DNA from: Mycobacterium scrofulaceum
GTDB taxonomy: Bacteria; Actinomycetota; Actinomycetes; Mycobacteriales; Mycobacteriaceae
DNA: 64,000 nt
NCBI RefSeq assembly: GCF_002086735.1
Contig: NZ_MVIJ01000006.1
Location: 62,001-126,000 of the forward strand
Direction of reading: 5' to 3'
A model generated the notes under the pieces. That model had not been told where the DNA came from. It searched no databases and worked only from the letters and a program-made list of their open reading frames with translations. A program made the position numbers and the translations under genes. Below are positions 40,950 through 47,238 of this stretch, piece after piece (within the stretch, counting starts at the first letter, position 1; each line of letters begins with the position of its first letter).

Positions 40950-41651
40950 TTACGAAAAGCCATACAGGACCACGGCGAACCCGACCAGCACCACGGTGAT
41001 GGCCGCGAGTGCCCGGTGCCGGTCTTGGATCCAGCACCTGATCCGTTCGAGGTGCGGATCGATCCGTGGCCCGACGACGAGGTAGGCCACCACGGGTGCC
41101 GCGACCGTCGAAGTCGCCAGGACGGCGTAGTAAGCCACGGCGACGACGGCGTCGACCGCCGTCAATCGTGAAGTGGCGATCTGGGTTCCGACGGCCGCGC
41201 TGGCGGCCAACACCTTGGGATTGGCGAGCATCGGAAGCATCCCGATCGCGGCCGCCACGGTGGGCGTGATCGTCCCGACGCCGCCGTCCCACCCCGTGCG
41301 GGCCGTCGCGTGGGCGCGCCGCCACCACAGCCACGCACCGAATGCCACCAGTCCGGCACCCACACCCACGACCACCCAATCGCCCCATGGGGGCGCGGGT
41401 CCCACCAGATCATCGAACAATCGCGGGGCGTGCATGAACGCCGTCGTGAGCACAGTCAGCGACACCAACCGGCCCAGCAAGTACGCAAGGCTGGACGAGT
41501 AGGGCCGATCGTTGTGGATGAGCAGCACCAACGACACCACGATCGGTACGGGTGAAATCGCCACCACCAGTGCCGGTGCGGTCAATTTCGCCAACACCAA
41601 TCCCGAGAAGACCGACACACCAATACCTTTCACACGCGCAAGGCGCCGCAT
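40950..41651 (-). CDS. GAP (Sap)-family membrane protein
   Basis: A 233-residue integral membrane protein with about six hydrophobic segments, of the GAP (glycopeptidolipid-addressing protein, Sap) family. Seen are LVVAISPVPIVVSLVLLI, DRPYSSSLAYLLGRLVSL, TITPTVAAAIGMLPMLANPK and VVGPRIDPHLERIRCWIQDR. Family members support transport of surface glycolipids in mycobacteria. It is last in the minus-strand run with the CsoR-like regulator. An in-frame GTG at 41633 is an alternative start. Confidence 0.87.
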   Translation of the reverse strand: MRRLARVKGIGVSVFSGLVLAKLTAPALVVAISPVPIVVSLVLLIHNDRPYSSSLAYLLGRLVSLTVLTTAFMHAPRLFDDLVGPAPPWGDWVVVGVGAGLVAFGAWLWWRRAHATARTGWDGGVGTITPTVAAAIGMLPMLANPKVLAASAAVGTQIATSRLTAVDAVVAVAYYAVLATSTVAAPVVAYLVVGPRIDPHLERIRCWIQDRHRALAAITVVLVGFAVVLYGFS

Positions 41652-41693
41652 CGGGCGGCGGCCCGGCCCCGAGGACCGGTGGTCAGTGCGTGG

Positions 41694-42092
41694 TCAGCCG
41701 AGCGCGCCGATCGCGGCCTGCAGCTTGGCGGTGGCCTGGTCCGCGACGTCCTGCAAGGCCCCCTGCTCGCCGGTCACCTTGACCATGAGTTGCGGATCCA
41801 TCGCCTCGACGAGGACGGCATCGGCTTCGGCGGGGTCGGTTCGCACCACGACGTTGCACGGCAGCAACTGGCCGATCTGGCGGTGAATGCCCAGCGCGCG
41901 ATGGGCGAGGGTCGGGTTGCAGGCACCAAGGATGACGTAGTCCTCCATGTCCTCCCCGAGCTTCTGCTTGAGGGTGGCTTTGACGTCGATCGTTGTCAGC
42001 ACACCGAATCCCTGCTCGGCCAGCGCCTTGGTGGTCCGCTCCACCGCGTCGTCGAACGACGTGTGCAAGGTCGCGTTCAATCCTGATGTCAT
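41694..42092 (-). CDS. DUF302 protein
   Basis: A 132-residue DUF302 (TT1751-like) protein: TLHTSFDDAVERTTKALAEQ, GFGVLTTIDVKATLKQKLGE, YVILGACNPTLAHRALGIHR, LLPCNVVVRTDPAEADAV. The start at 42092 has a GAGGAG site. DUF302 proteins recur near sulfur-oxidation genes, rhodaneses and CsoR/CstR-type regulators, but their activity is unknown; the conserved Cys in GACNPTLA is the obvious reactive residue. GTTC-N17-GGGTA upstream could be a weak separate promoter. Confidence 0.92.
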   Translation of the reverse strand: MTSGLNATLHTSFDDAVERTTKALAEQGFGVLTTIDVKATLKQKLGEDMEDYVILGACNPTLAHRALGIHRQIGQLLPCNVVVRTDPAEADAVLVEAMDPQLMVKVTGEQGALQDVADQATAKLQAAIGALG

Positions 42093-42170
42093 TTCTTCTC
42101 CTCTGTCTCGATCTACCCGAAATCTCGGCCGGCACGAACGCAACTCGCTTCGGCGCGGGCTCGCCCCCCG

Positions 42171-42785
42171 TTAGGCCGCGGCGCGGGGGCGCTGCAGCTG
42201 GGAGAACTGCGGAACCGCGGCCAACGTCGCGACCGCGTCGAACAGGGCGAGCGCGGCGTCCGCGTCCGGCGGCGCGGTGAGGACCGGCCCGAAGAAAGCG
42301 CGCCCGTCGATCCGCAGAATCGGACTGCCACCGGTTTCGCCGAGCGCATCCTGTCCCGCCCGGTGCGCCTTCCGGACGGCCTCGTCGAGGGCGGCCTCCG
42401 CCCCGGCCTTCGCCGCGCTGTCGGCCGCGCCCGCCGCGCTCAGAACGTGCGCGACGAGATCGTCGTCGAGGGGCTCGGAGCGGTCGAAGTACCGCTCGCC
42501 GAAGGCAAAGTACGCGTCCGACCACCCGCCGGCGCCGTTTTGCTGAGCGATGGCGGCCATCAGCCGGCCGGCGCGTTGCGAGTCGCGCATGCGGGCTTGC
42601 TGAGGGGGCAGGAGTTCCCGCCCCTCGTTGAGCACGGCGAGACTCATCAGCTGCCAGTCGACATCGAACCCGGCCTGCTCGGCCACGGCGCGTAGCCACT
42701 GCGCGGTGTTCCACGAGAACGGGCACACCGGATCGAGCCAGAGTGTGACTTTGGCTGCGGTTCGATCAGTTTGATCGGGCGGCAT
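42171..42785 (-). CDS. DsbA-family thioredoxin-fold protein (mycothiol-dependent reductase-like)
   Basis: A 204-residue DsbA-fold protein resembling the mycothiol-dependent nitroreductase Rv2466c group: TLWLDPVCPFSWNTAQWLR, MSLAVLNEGRELLP, GGSPILRIDGRAFFGPVLTA. The active site reads CPFS, so only the first cysteine of the usual CxxC is present; such one-cysteine forms usually work through a mixed disulfide with mycothiol. The start has an AAAGGGG site. It follows the CsoR-like gene by 30 bases on the same strand. Confidence 0.88.
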   Translation of the reverse strand: MPPDQTDRTAAKVTLWLDPVCPFSWNTAQWLRAVAEQAGFDVDWQLMSLAVLNEGRELLPPQQARMRDSQRAGRLMAAIAQQNGAGGWSDAYFAFGERYFDRSEPLDDDLVAHVLSAAGAADSAAKAGAEAALDEAVRKAHRAGQDALGETGGSPILRIDGRAFFGPVLTAPPDADAALALFDAVATLAAVPQFSQLQRPRAAA

Positions 42786-42815
42786 TGCCCATTCCCCTTT
42801 CGTGGTCGCCGGCGA

Positions 42816-43223
<408 letters not shown>

Positions 43224-43287
43224 TCACCATGTGCGGGTACGCAGGCACGCGATGACGGGTGATGTGTGCCTGCCGGCCCTCAGGTGC

Positions 43288-43301
43288 GGGCCAAATGGCC
43301 C
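43288..43301. promoter_or_regulatory. 14-bp palindrome upstream of mmpS
   Basis: GGGCCA-AA-TGGCCC, 70 bases before the mmpS start, in the 43199-43370 leader, which otherwise shows nothing recognised. Possible second regulator site; weak. Confidence 0.3.
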
Positions 43302-43370
43302 TATTGGCCGCGCGGCGCGGGGCTGAGACTCCGTACCAGTAACACCAGGTCACGAGGGAAAGGAACGTCC

Positions 43371-43802
43371 GTGTCCACGTTTCTCAGACGGGCCTGGGTG
43401 CCACTGGTCGTCGTGGCGGCCGTGGCCCTCGGCGGGATGGCCGTCGACCAACTGCGCGGCGTCTTCGGGTCCGACCCGATCTTCACGGCGACCGGCAGCA
43501 CCGCGGAACCGCTCGTTGCCTCGCACATCAAGCGGGTCACCTACGAGGTCTACGGACCCAGCGGCACGACGGGAAGCGTGAGCTACTTGAACAAGAACGC
43601 ACAGCCGGAGCAGGCCGACTTCAGCACGCTGCCCTGGACTTTCACGATCACCACGACCGTGCCCGCCGTGATCGCCAGCGTGGTGGCGCAGGGCGACAGC
43701 GATGACATCGGCTGCCGCATCAGCGTCAACGGCGAAGTCAAGGACGAGCGATCCTCGGCCGGGCGCCACGCTCAAACGTCCTGTCTGGTGAAAGCCGGAT
43801 GA
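43371..43802 (+). CDS. MmpS-family periplasmic/membrane accessory protein
   Basis: A 143-residue MmpS protein, the small partner of an MmpL transporter. It has one N-terminal membrane segment (RRAWVPLVVVAAVALGGMAV, residues 6-25) and the conserved beta-sandwich: HIKRVTYEVYGPSGTTGSVS, YLNKNAQPEQADF, PWTFTITTTVPAVIASVVAQ, and the cysteine pair IGCRISVNGEVKDE and TSCLVKAG. The GTG start at 43371 has a GGGAAAGGA site. Its end overlaps the mmpL start by four bases. MmpS4/5-like members help export siderophores or glycopeptidolipids. Confidence 0.95.
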   Translation: MSTFLRRAWVPLVVVAAVALGGMAVDQLRGVFGSDPIFTATGSTAEPLVASHIKRVTYEVYGPSGTTGSVSYLNKNAQPEQADFSTLPWTFTITTTVPAVIASVVAQGDSDDIGCRISVNGEVKDERSSAGRHAQTSCLVKAG

Positions 43803-46717
43803 ACACCGACAACGAAACCCGTCCGAGGTTCATGCGGTTCGTCCGAACGTTCGCGTGGCCCATCATCATCGGCTGGCTGCTGCTCACCGTCGCGCTGAAT
43901 GTGCTTGTCCCGCCGATCGAGTCGGTGGCACGCAAGCACGCGGTCACGATGTCACCCCAGGATGCGCCGGCGATGATCGCCGCCAAGCGCATGGGTGCGA
44001 CGTTCCACGAGTCGGATTCCGACAGCATCGCCATGATCGTCCTGGAAAGCGATAAACAACTCGGAGACGAGGCGCACCGCTACTACGACGGCCTGGTGCA
44101 AAAGCTGCAGGCCGACCCCAAGCACGTGCAGCACGTCCAGAACGTGTGGGGCGACCCGCTGACCGCCGCCGGTGTCCAAAGCAAGGACGGCAAGGCGGCC
44201 TACGTCGAGCTCAACCTGGCCGGCAATCAGGGCAGCACCCTGGGCAACGAATCCGTCGACGCCGTGCGCAAGATCGTCGACAAGTCGGAGCCCCCCAAGG
44301 GGCTCAAGGTCTACGTCACCGGCCCCGCCCCGCTGACCACGGACATGAACGAAGCGGCCGACAAGAGCATGTTCAAGATGATGGGCGTCACGGGCGTGGT
44401 CATCATGATCATGCTGTTCATCGCCTATCGATCCGTCAGCACGGTGCTGCTGGTCCTGGTCATGGTCGGCTTCGAGATGGGCACGGCCAGAGGGCTTGTC
44501 GCGCTTCTCGGCAATTACGAACTCTTGGGGTTCTCGACGTTCGTCGTGGCGATGCTGTCCTCGTTGGCGATTGCGGCGGGGACCGACTACGCGATCTTCC
44601 TGATCGGGCGCTATCAGGAGGCGCGCCAGGCCGGCCAGGATCGAGAAACCGCGTACTACACGATGTTTCGCGGCACCTCGCACATCATTTTGGGCTCGGG
44701 GTTGACCATCGCCGGGGCCACGTTCTGCCTCCACCTGGCGCGCCTGTCGTATTTCAAGGCACTCGGCATCCCGTCCGCGCTGGGCCTGCTGGTCGTCGTG
44801 GCGGGAGCGATGACCGCGGCACCCGCCGTCGTCGCGGTGGCCACCCGCTTCGGCCTGCTCGACCCGAGACGAATGATCAAGACGCGCGGGTGGCGGCGCA
44901 TCGGCACCGCGACCGTGCGCTGGCCCGGCCCGGTGTTCGCGGCCTCGCTGGTCATCGCCATCGTCGGCATCCTGATCATGCCGAGCATGAAGATCAGCTA
45001 CAACGACCGCTTCTACACCCCCCCGGGCGTTCCGTCGAACATCGGATACGCGGCCGCCGAACGCCACTTCAGCGCCGCCACCATGAACCCCGACATCCTC
45101 ATGATCGAGAGCGATCACGACATGCGGAACAGCGGCGACATGATCATCCTGGACAGGCTCGCCAAAGACATCTTCCGGTCACCGGGAATCGCGATGGTGC
45201 AGAGCATCACCCGGCCGCTGGGCGGCCCGATCGAGCACACCTCCATACCGTTCCAGATCAGTGCGCAGTCGATCCCGATCCAGCAGAACCTGCAGTTCAT
45301 GCGGGACCGCACGAACGACATGCTCAAGATGAGCGACGACCTCGGCGCCATGATCGTCTCGATGCAGCGCATGCAGGGCCTGCTCGGGCAGATGAGCGAC
45401 GCCACCCACCACATGGTCGGCGATATGCACGAGATGCAGGCCACGCTGGACGAGATGCGGGACCACCTGGCGGATTTCGACGACTTCGCCCGACCGCTCC
45501 GTAGCTATCTCTACTGGGAACAGCACTGCTACAACATCCCCGTCTGCTGGGCCACCAGGTCGGTGTTCGAGGCGATCGACGGTGTCGACAAGTTCAGCGA
45601 GAACATGAGCACGCTGATCAAGGACGTCAACAACGTCGACGCGATCATCCCGCAGATGCTCGCGCAGTTCTCGCCGATGATCGCCGTCGCCAAATCCATG
45701 CAGGGAACCCTGCTCACGATGCACAGCAGCTTCTCGAACCTGGTCACCCAGATGGCGCAGATGACCGACACGGCCAGCGCGATGGGGCAGGCGTTCGACG
45801 CCTCCCGCAGTGGTGACTACTTCTACCTGCCCCCGGAAGCCTTTCAGAATGCCGACTTTCAGCGCGGACTGAAGCTCTTCCTGTCCCCGGACGGAAAGGC
45901 CGCGCGCTTCATCATCACCCACGACGCCGACCCGGCGACCCCGGCGGGCATTTCCGCCGTCATGCCGGAACTGGCGGCCGCGCATCAAGCGGTCAAGGGA
46001 ACGACCCTGACCGGCGCCAAGTTCTACCTCGCCGGAACGGCGGCCATCTATCGCGACATCCAGTCGGGGTCGCATTACGACCTGCTGATCGTGGGACTCG
46101 CGGCGCTGACGCTGATCTTCGTCGTCATGGTGATCATCACGCGCGCGCTGGTCGCGTCCCTGGTGATCGTCGGCACGGTGCTGTTGTCGCTGGGCGCCGC
46201 CTTCGGGCTCTCCGTCCTGGTCTGGCAACACCTGTTGGGCCTGGACCTGAACTGGATCGCACCGGTGTTCGGGTTGATCATCCTGCTGGCCGTCGGCTCG
46301 GACTACAACCTGCTGCTGGTGTCGCGGTTCCAGGAGGAGATCGGCGCCGGGTTGAAGACCGGCATCATCCGATCCATGGGCGAGACCGGTGGCGTCGTCA
46401 CCACCGCGGGACTCGTCTTCGCCTTCACCATGATGTCGATGGTCGCCAGCGACCTGCGCTCGATCGGCCAGGCCGGCAGCACGATCGGGCTCGGCCTGCT
46501 GTTCGACACGCTGATCGTGCGCTCGCTGATGACGCCGTCGATCGCCGCGCTGCTGGGGCGGTGGTTCTGGTGGCCGATCCGGGTGCGCCCGCGCCCCGCC
46601 AGCGAGATGCTGCGGCCCTTCGGCCCACGCAGCCTCGTTCGGTCCCTCTTCCTGGGTGAGGCCGCCGACGCGCCCGCCACCAAGCCGGAGAAAGCGATGG
46701 CCTCGACGTCCCGGTGA
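43799..46717 (+). CDS. MmpL-family RND transporter (MmpL4/5-like)
   Basis: A 972-residue RND transporter with about twelve membrane helices, N-terminal anchor FAWPIIIGWLLLTVAL, and the two paired Asp-Tyr proton-relay motifs GTDYAIFLIGRYQE (about residue 262) and GSDYNLLLVSRFQEE (about residue 832). Between helices 7 and 8 lies a long helical hairpin (MLKMSDDLGAMIVSMQRMQG, then MQATLDEMRDHLADFDDF) with the two cysteines of EQHCYNIPVCW, typical of MmpL4/5 proteins that export mycobactin/carboxymycobactin or lipids. Translation is coupled to mmpS. The cargo cannot be decided from sequence. Confidence 0.95.
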   Translation: MNTDNETRPRFMRFVRTFAWPIIIGWLLLTVALNVLVPPIESVARKHAVTMSPQDAPAMIAAKRMGATFHESDSDSIAMIVLESDKQLGDEAHRYYDGLVQKLQADPKHVQHVQNVWGDPLTAAGVQSKDGKAAYVELNLAGNQGSTLGNESVDAVRKIVDKSEPPKGLKVYVTGPAPLTTDMNEAADKSMFKMMGVTGVVIMIMLFIAYRSVSTVLLVLVMVGFEMGTARGLVALLGNYELLGFSTFVVAMLSSLAIAAGTDYAIFLIGRYQEARQAGQDRETAYYTMFRGTSHIILGSGLTIAGATFCLHLARLSYFKALGIPSALGLLVVVAGAMTAAPAVVAVATRFGLLDPRRMIKTRGWRRIGTATVRWPGPVFAASLVIAIVGILIMPSMKISYNDRFYTPPGVPSNIGYAAAERHFSAATMNPDILMIESDHDMRNSGDMIILDRLAKDIFRSPGIAMVQSITRPLGGPIEHTSIPFQISAQSIPIQQNLQFMRDRTNDMLKMSDDLGAMIVSMQRMQGLLGQMSDATHHMVGDMHEMQATLDEMRDHLADFDDFARPLRSYLYWEQHCYNIPVCWATRSVFEAIDGVDKFSENMSTLIKDVNNVDAIIPQMLAQFSPMIAVAKSMQGTLLTMHSSFSNLVTQMAQMTDTASAMGQAFDASRSGDYFYLPPEAFQNADFQRGLKLFLSPDGKAARFIITHDADPATPAGISAVMPELAAAHQAVKGTTLTGAKFYLAGTAAIYRDIQSGSHYDLLIVGLAALTLIFVVMVIITRALVASLVIVGTVLLSLGAAFGLSVLVWQHLLGLDLNWIAPVFGLIILLAVGSDYNLLLVSRFQEEIGAGLKTGIIRSMGETGGVVTTAGLVFAFTMMSMVASDLRSIGQAGSTIGLGLLFDTLIVRSLMTPSIAALLGRWFWWPIRVRPRPASEMLRPFGPRSLVRSLFLGEAADAPATKPEKAMASTSR

Positions 46718-47238
46718 AACCGGCGGGCAAGATGGGCCCTGTGCGGCTGCTGCTGATCTCCGACACCCACGTCCCCAACCGCGCCCGCGACCTGCCCGCC
46801 CGGGTCTGGGACGAGGTGGAGGCGGCCGACGTCGTCGTACACGCCGGCGACTGGGTGGTGCCCGAACTGCTCGACCAACTCGAAAGCCGGTCGGCCCGGT
46901 TGGTCGCCTGCTGGGGAAACAACGACGGCCCCGCATTGCGGGCGCGGCTGCCCGAACGGGCGGACGTCACCCTGGCGGGGGTGCGGTTCACGGTCGTGCA
47001 CGAGACCGGCGCGGCGACGGGCCGCGAGGCGCGGATGTCGCGGCTGTATCCGGACACCCAGGTGCTGGTCTTCGGGCACAGCCACATCCCCTGGGACACC
47101 ACCAGCGAGTCCGGGTTACGCCTGCTCAATCCGGGCTCGCCGACCGATCGGCGCCGCCAACCGCACTGCACCTACATGGTCGCCCGGATCGGCGACGGGG
47201 CCCTGACCGACGTCGCCCTGCATCGCCTGCCGCGGTAG
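46714..47238 (+). CDS. YfcE/MJ0936-type metallophosphoesterase
   Basis: A 174-residue calcineurin-like phosphoesterase. All metal motifs are present: LLISDTHVPNRA (residues 12-23), VVHAGDWVV, CWGNNDGP, VVHETG and VFGHSHIPWDT. Such enzymes hydrolyse phosphomono- or diesters; the substrate is unknown. Its GTG start overlaps the mmpL stop (GTGA), so it belongs to the mmpS-mmpL transcript, an unusual partner for a transporter. Confidence 0.92.
   Translation: MKPAGKMGPVRLLLISDTHVPNRARDLPARVWDEVEAADVVVHAGDWVVPELLDQLESRSARLVACWGNNDGPALRARLPERADVTLAGVRFTVVHETGAATGREARMSRLYPDTQVLVFGHSHIPWDTTSESGLRLLNPGSPTDRRRQPHCTYMVARIGDGALTDVALHRLPR

Follow-up and report, generated by a model that had tools for sequence, protein, structure and literature searches.

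What does a CsoR-family repressor command when it stands back to back with an MmpS-MmpL exporter? The question is raised by positions 40950-47238 of a 64,000-nucleotide stretch of Mycobacterium scrofulaceum DNA (assembly GCF_002086735.1, contig NZ_MVIJ01000006.1, positions 62,001 to 126,000; hereafter the window), where two divergent runs, four genes on the minus strand and three on the plus strand, all seven open, are separated by 234 bp between the facing start codons. A preliminary description, made from the letters alone, had assigned the two runs one shared operator region, and the genes were found in their places with two perfect palindromes, 32 bp apart, between them. The elements on which the answer depends are the following.

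42816-43136, minus strand: CsoR-family repressor, CstR/ScCsoR-like, 106 amino acids, Cys50-Gly75-Cys79 (Trns_repr_metal PF02583, 80.7 bits)
43151-43166, no strand: operator 1, ATACCCGGCGGGGTAT, 16-bp palindrome, with TATGGT (-10-like in our reading) beside it on the repressor side
43183-43198, no strand: operator 2, ATACCCTGGGGGGTAT, 16-bp palindrome, with TATGGT beside it on the mmpS side, the mirror image of operator 1
43371-43802, plus strand: MmpS, adaptor of the exporter (Mycobact_memb PF05423, 159.9 bits)
43799-46717, plus strand: MmpL exporter of the operator-bearing subfamily (MMPL PF03176 twice; TIGR00833 above cut-off; subfamily tree)
42171-42785, minus strand: monothiol (CPFS) relative of the Rv2466c-like mycothiol-dependent reductases (Pfam PF22234, 143.8 bits, plus DSBA)
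41694-42092, minus strand: DUF302 protein with two conserved cysteines (Pfam PF03625, 78.2 bits; the ATG at 42092 was our choice of start)

The region is probably a two-way switch, in which a repressor predicted to sense persulfides would free the shared operators and so activate a redox operon on one side and, on the other, an MmpS-MmpL pump whose likely cargo is a product of reactive-sulfur stress. Sulfane sulfur would modify the repressor by forming a persulfide on Cys50 with the help of Cys79, as reported for ScCsoR; the modified repressor would leave both operators, and derepression would then run both ways, to the reductase-DUF302 operon and to mmpS-mmpL. Less certain are the later steps: sulfane sulfur might be handed back to mycothiol by the CPFS reductase and the DUF302 protein, and the pump, driven by protons, might move a sulfur-loaded or sulfur-damaged small molecule to the cell envelope, for which mycothiol persulfide or polysulfide, or a lipophilic polysulfide, would be a first guess. 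The tie between a CstR-like sensor and an MmpS-MmpL exporter, already proposed in the preliminary description, is supported at the level of sequence by the cysteine and glycine residues, the operators, the sulfur-gene neighbours and, above all, a subfamily-wide operator before mmpS. The proposal is stronger than could be judged from the window: an entire MmpL subfamily bears the operator, and we read it as an exporter dedicated to a CstR/ScCsoR-type regulon.

Membership of the repressor in the CsoR/RcnR (DUF156) fold is clear (cut-off 22.8 bits), and the NCBIfam cut-offs for RicR, FrmR and RcnR were far from reached (RicR model 40.6 bits, cut-off 175). Its cysteines stand 29 residues apart, and Gly75 occupies the position of the metal-ligand histidine four residues before the second cysteine, as had been read earlier, giving Cys-Gly-Cys (C/G/C) in place of the Cys-His-Cys (C/H/C) copper ligands of CsoR and RicR sensors. 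Among the fetched regions of the genus Mycobacterium, C/G/C was found in 98 of 98 distinct relatives and histidine in 0 of 98, counted at no less than 45% identity and 60 residues, a threshold that leaves out copper-type paralogues. The 87 repressor matches in loci L001-L082 were C/G/C in 84 cases and C/N/C, C/S/C and C/H/C in one each, the sole C/H/C match being the window genome's other CsoR-family gene (L001); a CsoR-family match of any type, copper included, is present in 245 of 248 genus genomes. Identity of the window repressor is 92% with an M. malmoense sequence, 91% with an M. parascrofulaceum sequence and 53-76% with relatives in loci labelled Streptomyces. The repressor of Streptomyces sp. 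TBY4 (L019), at 76% over residues 25-106, lies above the other Streptomyces matches, which points to transfer or to a mislabelled genome.

Neighbours of the repressor relatives were counted within 7.5 kb in named genomes (best 80 of 159 loci), using tblastn with queries identified by Pfam, where PDO (persulfide dioxygenase) denotes a fusion of metallo-beta-lactamase and rhodanese. The PDO-rhodanese fusion was found in 44 loci, the sulfite exporter TauE in 43, rhodanese in 41, DUF302 in 28, a Dsb-like gene in 11 and sulfide:quinone reductase (SQR) in 8; at least one of PDO, SQR, rhodanese and TauE was present in 54 of the 80 loci, at least one of all six genes in 69, and none in 11. This recount replaces earlier clusters from a home-made gene caller (PDO 42, TauE 26, rhodanese 34, DUF302 26, SQR 9). 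Control of sulfide or persulfide enzymes by the repressor may be suggested by neighbourhood in relatives, at those 54 named loci and, through SQR or PDO, at 23 of 55 exporter-linked loci; the window locus has neither of the two. In Segniliparus rugosus (L012) and Mycobacterium sp. OTB74 (L020), repressor, Dsb-like and SQR-like genes stand together and mmpS-mmpL is not beside them, an arrangement that perhaps represents the state before the exporter joined.

The operator pattern of CstR/ScCsoR sensors, ATACC-N6-GGTAT, is present at the repressor's own promoter in both palindromes. Perfect ATACCCN4GGGTAT occurs at only two sites in the 6.17-Mb genome, both in the divergent region, and with up to two mismatches at 66 places, against 40 for the reversed pattern; the 3-kb stretches around three one-mismatch operators elsewhere in the genome, inspected by eye, held no sulfur gene. 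The palindromes are more than chance, because the background of ATACCN6GGTAT is only 27 sites in 905,463 bp, or about 0.012 per 400 bp. Both operators and their mirror-image TATGGT boxes, which we read as putative -10 elements, are conserved in an eight-genome alignment; the operator pair is present in all seven named genomes with the same locus (L003-L009), and just one operator is found in each of M. sp. AT1 (L010) and M. hodleri (L011). Upstream of the copper-type CsoR paralogue L001 (contig C151:1240-1530) lies the site ATACCCCGCCCGGGTAT, with the same half-sites and one base more between them, by which a spacing code could possibly separate copper from sulfur sensors.

The exporter side was approached from both genes. 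Sixty regions around high-ranking repressor matches were fetched first; being chosen by repressor similarity, they are biased towards linkage. In them mmpS-mmpL adjoins the repressor in many arrangements. It stands back to back with repressor-Dsb-DUF302 at L128 and other loci, with repressor-Dsb-SQR at L147, L149 and L154, and with repressor-PDO-SQR-DUF302-TauE at L159; at L184 it lies downstream of repressor-DUF302-DUF302-Dsb. One genome (G060) carries two copies of repressor-DUF302-DUF302-Dsb-mmpS-mmpL (L184, L232), all genes on one strand, and the exporter there may therefore share the repressor's transcript. A second genome (G046) has one module copy on its large contig (L142) and another, with SQR, on the short second of its two contigs (L147, contig C2, 17,972 bases), possibly a plasmid.

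In an MmpL-first survey, 80 more regions were fetched, 30 of which hold a CsoR-family gene. Scoring was limited to the top three candidates per genome, so that the set of 92 MmpL genes with at least 70% identity is a minimum; the repressor-first approach had already brought in 21 of them. Among the 91 with a placed mmpS, exact ATACCN6GGTAT lies within 400 bp upstream of mmpS in 78, a repressor gene lies in the region in 48, and either or both are present in 87; the remaining four (L226, L228, L242, L250) have a one-mismatch operator. The 43 that have no repressor gene in the region carry the exact operator in 39 cases, and in the 92nd gene (L267), whose mmpS was placed by hand, it lies about 165 bp ahead of mmpS. 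Of the 13 genes in the 61.5-70% identity range, 7 have a repressor gene, six of these also the operator, and the other 6 have neither; below 61.5%, none of 17 is marked, two of them with less than 300 bp of upstream sequence. The operator counts cover only rows with a placed mmpS, which excludes L267 before its placement and four of the 21 rows below 61.5% identity. Among 97 mmpS promoters, duplicates kept, none matched any of five altered patterns (reversed, swapped, inside-out, one base shorter, one base longer), and a copper-type operator spacing, one base longer, was accordingly rejected for mmpS (0 of 97 rows).

A forecast that the 64-66% identity class would be repressor-linked and the 61-62% class would not was made before 20 further loci were inspected; it was not blind, as a nearby repressor was already listed for at least three of them (G004, G092, G135). 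The higher class had the exact operator in 14 of 14 loci and a repressor gene in the region in 10 of 14, so that the linkage forecast held for ten, and the lower class had the operator in 0 of 6 and a repressor gene in 0 of 6.

The 135 MmpL rows gave 126 distinct ones after removal of duplicates, and a FastTree of 146 MmpLs, rooted by us on MmpL4/5-like and other paralogues, placed all 108 sequences marked by script under one node with 113 tips and a support of 99. The five tips inside this clade that the script left unmarked are the four one-mismatch cases and L267. Within this clade of 113 the exact operator is present in 99 members and a repressor gene lies in the region in 65; at least one of the two is found in 109, and the other four have the one-mismatch operator. 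Among the 48 members with no repressor gene in the region, 44 carry the exact operator, against an expectation of about 0.6 (48 x 0.012). Outside the clade 0 of 33 MmpLs are marked; 26 of them, the six 13-kb regions L325-L330 included, were testable, having a placed mmpS preceded by 300 bp of sequence or more (L197, L200 and L293 had less than 300 bp; L204, L209, L211 and L214 no placed mmpS), and for 21 of the 33 the flank was about 1.5 kb only, where a repressor gene further off would be missed. The subfamily is present in at least 106 of the 248 genus genomes (93, one of them with a contig-truncated copy, G237, plus 13 from the later fetch), and the operator keeps its place before mmpS while MmpS identity falls to 42-49% in the most distant group. 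A neighbouring MmpL group of 62-65% identity (L289-L293, L295, L325-L330) has no operator and no repressor in the region, the operator of L293 not being readable.

The partners of the exporter were counted at 55 repressor-linked subfamily loci, 20 later-fetched loci excluded: a Dsb-like gene at 34, DUF302 at 28, SQR at 22, phosphoesterase at 14, GAP at 7, PDO at 5 and TauE at 5. None of the partner genes was found at 27 comparison MmpL loci, most of which were stretches of only 3.4-5.9 kb, and SQR, PDO, a Dsb-like gene or DUF302 was found at one only (L266) of the 44 subfamily loci that have no repressor gene. The monothiol Rv2466c-like protein and DUF302 are frequent partners, and GAP and phosphoesterase are optional local extras. 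The former had been taken for a one-cysteine DsbA-like protein; its single Cys21, near the N-terminus, stands, and the family assignment has shifted from a plain DsbA to a relative of the Rv2466c-type mycothiol-dependent reductases (PF22234; best PDB match Rv2466c, 136.5 bits). The CPxC active site of Rv2466c reductases is replaced by CPFS, which recurs in 32 of 37 readable relatives, CPxC in none. Elsewhere in the genome are a CPWC protein (L333), probably the Rv2466c orthologue, and a second CPFS paralogue (L332, contig C109:41935-42513), 48% identical to that of the window. Two cysteines lie in the aligned part of 53 of 56 distinct DUF302 relatives.

The pump itself is a full member of its family, with TIGR00833 at 1035.5 bits (cut-off 874.7), two PF03176 domains and a PF05423 partner. 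Its Asp-Tyr (DY) pairs are D263-Y264 and D835-Y836, its coiled-coil cysteines Cys577 and Cys583; D263, D835, Y836 and both cysteines are conserved inside and outside the subfamily, few gaps aside, and nine residues are signatures of the subfamily. Because the proton-relay residues and the coiled-coil cysteines are conserved and the protein resembles MmpL5, whose equivalent cysteines are joined in a disulfide and which depends on MmpS5 for transport (PMC12501195), the pump should, as far as its residues indicate, work like MmpS4/5-MmpL4/5, yet not as their orthologue.

The best surviving alternative, which we nonetheless consider somewhat unlikely, keeps the sulfane-sulfur sensor and lets the pump expel xenobiotics, quinones or other electrophiles. 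MexR of Pseudomonas aeruginosa governs a resistance-nodulation-division (RND) drug pump. MarR-family repressors, MexR included, sense sulfane sulfur (PMC11211675), and MmpS5-MmpL5, of the same broad MmpL class, expels drugs (PMC12501195); the company of SQR, PDO, DUF302 and the Dsb-like reductase speaks against so general a role. That the repressor answers Cu(I), peroxide or disulfide stress instead of sulfur is unlikely. The operators resemble those of copper sensors, as said of RicR in PMC7533328, TTHA1953 loses its DNA on oxidation (PMC10318464), and MmpS6-MmpL6 (TbD1) has been linked to oxidative stress and CsoR/RicR-regulated genes (PMC9048740); against this stand the missing histidine in all 98 relatives, the SQR or PDO beside 23 of the 55 linked loci, and the polysulfide response of ScCsoR, which shares the operator pattern (PMC7533328). 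It is quite unlikely that the pump is an extra MmpL4/5-like siderophore exporter, induced when sulfide or persulfides upset iron: its closest solved relatives are indeed MmpL4 (1289.7 bits) and MmpL5 (1194.8 bits), and the conserved proton-relay residues and cysteines fit, but another MmpL of the same genome (L197) is nearer to MmpL4/5 (best MmpL4 chain 1425.4 vs 1289.7 bits) and the subfamily forms a separate clade, on which grounds orthology to the siderophore exporters was rejected. Mere chance adjacency of mmpS-mmpL and the repressor operon, to which the passenger behaviour of phosphoesterase and GAP lends some colour, is very improbable and already contradicted by the many gene orders and by the exact operator at 44 of 48 members lacking the repressor gene.

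Several observations weigh against the two-way sulfur switch. The window locus is devoid of a sulfur-oxidation gene, and in 26 of the 80 named repressor loci, some on short contigs, the 7.5 kb around the repressor hold no PDO, SQR, rhodanese or TauE. The exact operator is missing upstream of mmpS in ten subfamily members that do have a repressor gene (L184, L221, L230, L232, L245, L262, L263, L265, L268, L294), which in several is explained by mmpS lying downstream of the repressor in the same orientation. A scan of the shared region for sigma-70 promoters and terminators found nothing, the promoter part counting here, and the half-sites common to the repressor operators and the promoter of the copper-type paralogue L001 make cross-talk possible. 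TTHA1953, a distant member of the CsoR family that regulates sulfur genes, lost DNA affinity on oxidation (Cu(II) or H2O2, giving disulfide dimers) and not with NaHS in vitro (PMC10318464). Five of 19 loci of the fbp/htdZ type (L139, L140, L141, L143, L145) keep the repressor operon with no intact mmpL, and the pump is therefore dispensable there. The genomes and species compared are related and hence non-independent observations.

Sulfur oxidation was also sought in the remainder of the M. scrofulaceum genome, a draft of 184 contigs rated 100% complete. No SQR was found, the best-scoring matches to two SQR types being weak (29% and 32% identical), and no match to the PDO-rhodanese fusion spans both domains (best-scoring 28%). 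Because neither was found, export and reduction may stand in for oxidation in this genome; co-occurrence of SQR and pump in other genomes, and the relatives that dropped the pump, argue against such a replacement. A bolder version, in which a CstR-commanded MmpS-MmpL subfamily is a dedicated mycobacterial sulfane-sulfur exporter that expels polysulfur in mycothiol-bound or lipophilic form and is able to take the place of sulfide oxidation in cells lacking SQR and persulfide dioxygenase, is tentative and in our view doubtful.

The nearest described circuit is that of Streptomyces coelicolor, where ScCsoR, bound to ATACCn6GGTAT, keeps PDO, rhodanese and a sulfite transporter repressed and responds to polysulfide only with both cysteines in place (PMC7533328). 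The window repressor shares with it the two cysteines (Cys37 and Cys66 in ScCsoR, likewise 29 apart), the operator, two sites at one promoter and, judging from sequence, self-regulation (PMC7533328), and its relatives often lie in PDO-rhodanese-TauE clusters; the difference is that the repressor is here predicted to act on an MmpS-MmpL pump and on a monothiol Rv2466c-like reductase, in a genome where no SQR or PDO fusion was found. Staphylococcus aureus CstR and Bacillus licheniformis YrkD are likewise two-cysteine CsoR-family repressors of sulfide or sulfane-sulfur genes, YrkD being a tested case in which the sulfur-treated protein no longer binds its DNA (PMC9918477); in the relevant passages of that paper no exporter of the RND/MmpL kind is mentioned for either. 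MmpS4/5-MmpL4/5 resemble the pump in the MmpS partner, the MMPL domains, the DY proton-relay pairs and the paired coiled-coil cysteines (PMC12803245, PMC12501195), whereas the subfamily has its own clade and operator, and the MmpL4/5-like genes of the tree lie outside it and carry no operator where readable. MmpS6-MmpL6 (TbD1) of M. bovis and ancestral M. tuberculosis, the pair linked above to oxidative stress, is not described as under direct control of a CstR-like repressor in the passages of PMC9048740 that concern it. PexA of Rhodobacter capsulatus has been suggested to export polysulfide species, but is an ABC transporter of other fold and energy source (PMC6424863). Among the matches listed from the open-licence PubMed Central literature, none describes MmpS-MmpL under a CstR-like repressor, and the new element would be a CstR/ScCsoR-type regulon whose effector is an MmpS-MmpL exporter. 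MmpL transporters have so far been named after lipid, siderophore or drug cargo; here a subfamily is tied by its operator to a reactive-sulfur regulon, which gives an orphan exporter group a testable signal and a short cargo list and suggests that cells may deal with sulfane sulfur by export as well as by oxidation and reduction, a third route. Two published PCR primers of the stress-induced mmpS OCU_00810 of M. intracellulare (PMC11022373) had no exact match among the fetched loci.

Two genes and one further palindrome complete the locus; no Rfam match and no tRNA were found in the window.

40950-41651, minus strand: GAP/Sap-type membrane protein (SfLAP/GAP), accessory (Pfam PF11139, 117.4 bits; function in lipid traffic putative)
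46714-47238, plus strand: YfcE-type phosphoesterase, locus-specific passenger (Metallophos_2 PF12850 and TIGR00040 above cut-off)
43288-43301, no strand: second palindrome, GGGCCAAATGGCCC, located in the leader of mmpS some 84 bp upstream of its start, mostly conserved in the eight-genome alignment

Both genes had been counted into the module. They are present, GAP as a glycolipid-addressing protein of the GAP/Sap family by PF11139, and the phosphoesterase overlaps mmpL by 4 bases, as mmpS overlaps mmpL, but they fall outside the conserved core. Across 99 subfamily loci the phosphoesterase is found only in the 14 of the fbp/htdZ type; it is kept at the five loci where mmpL is broken or gone, and a functional partnership with MmpL was rejected on this ground. 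The seven-gene arrangement recurs in other mycobacteria, which excludes a peculiarity of one strain, and the whole set is confined to a single locus of the chromosome, represented by 19 of the 60 repressor-first regions; five of these lack an intact mmpL, and a sixth is truncated at the end of its contig. The gene names fbp, htdZ and fadE1 are used for this locus, which lies between fbp and htdZ and presumably resembles the order Rv0129c-Rv0131c. GGGCCN4GGCCC, the form of the leader palindrome GGGCCAAATGGCCC, which may resemble a DosR box, was found no more than 300 bp from mmpS in 20 of 113 rows, counting duplicates.

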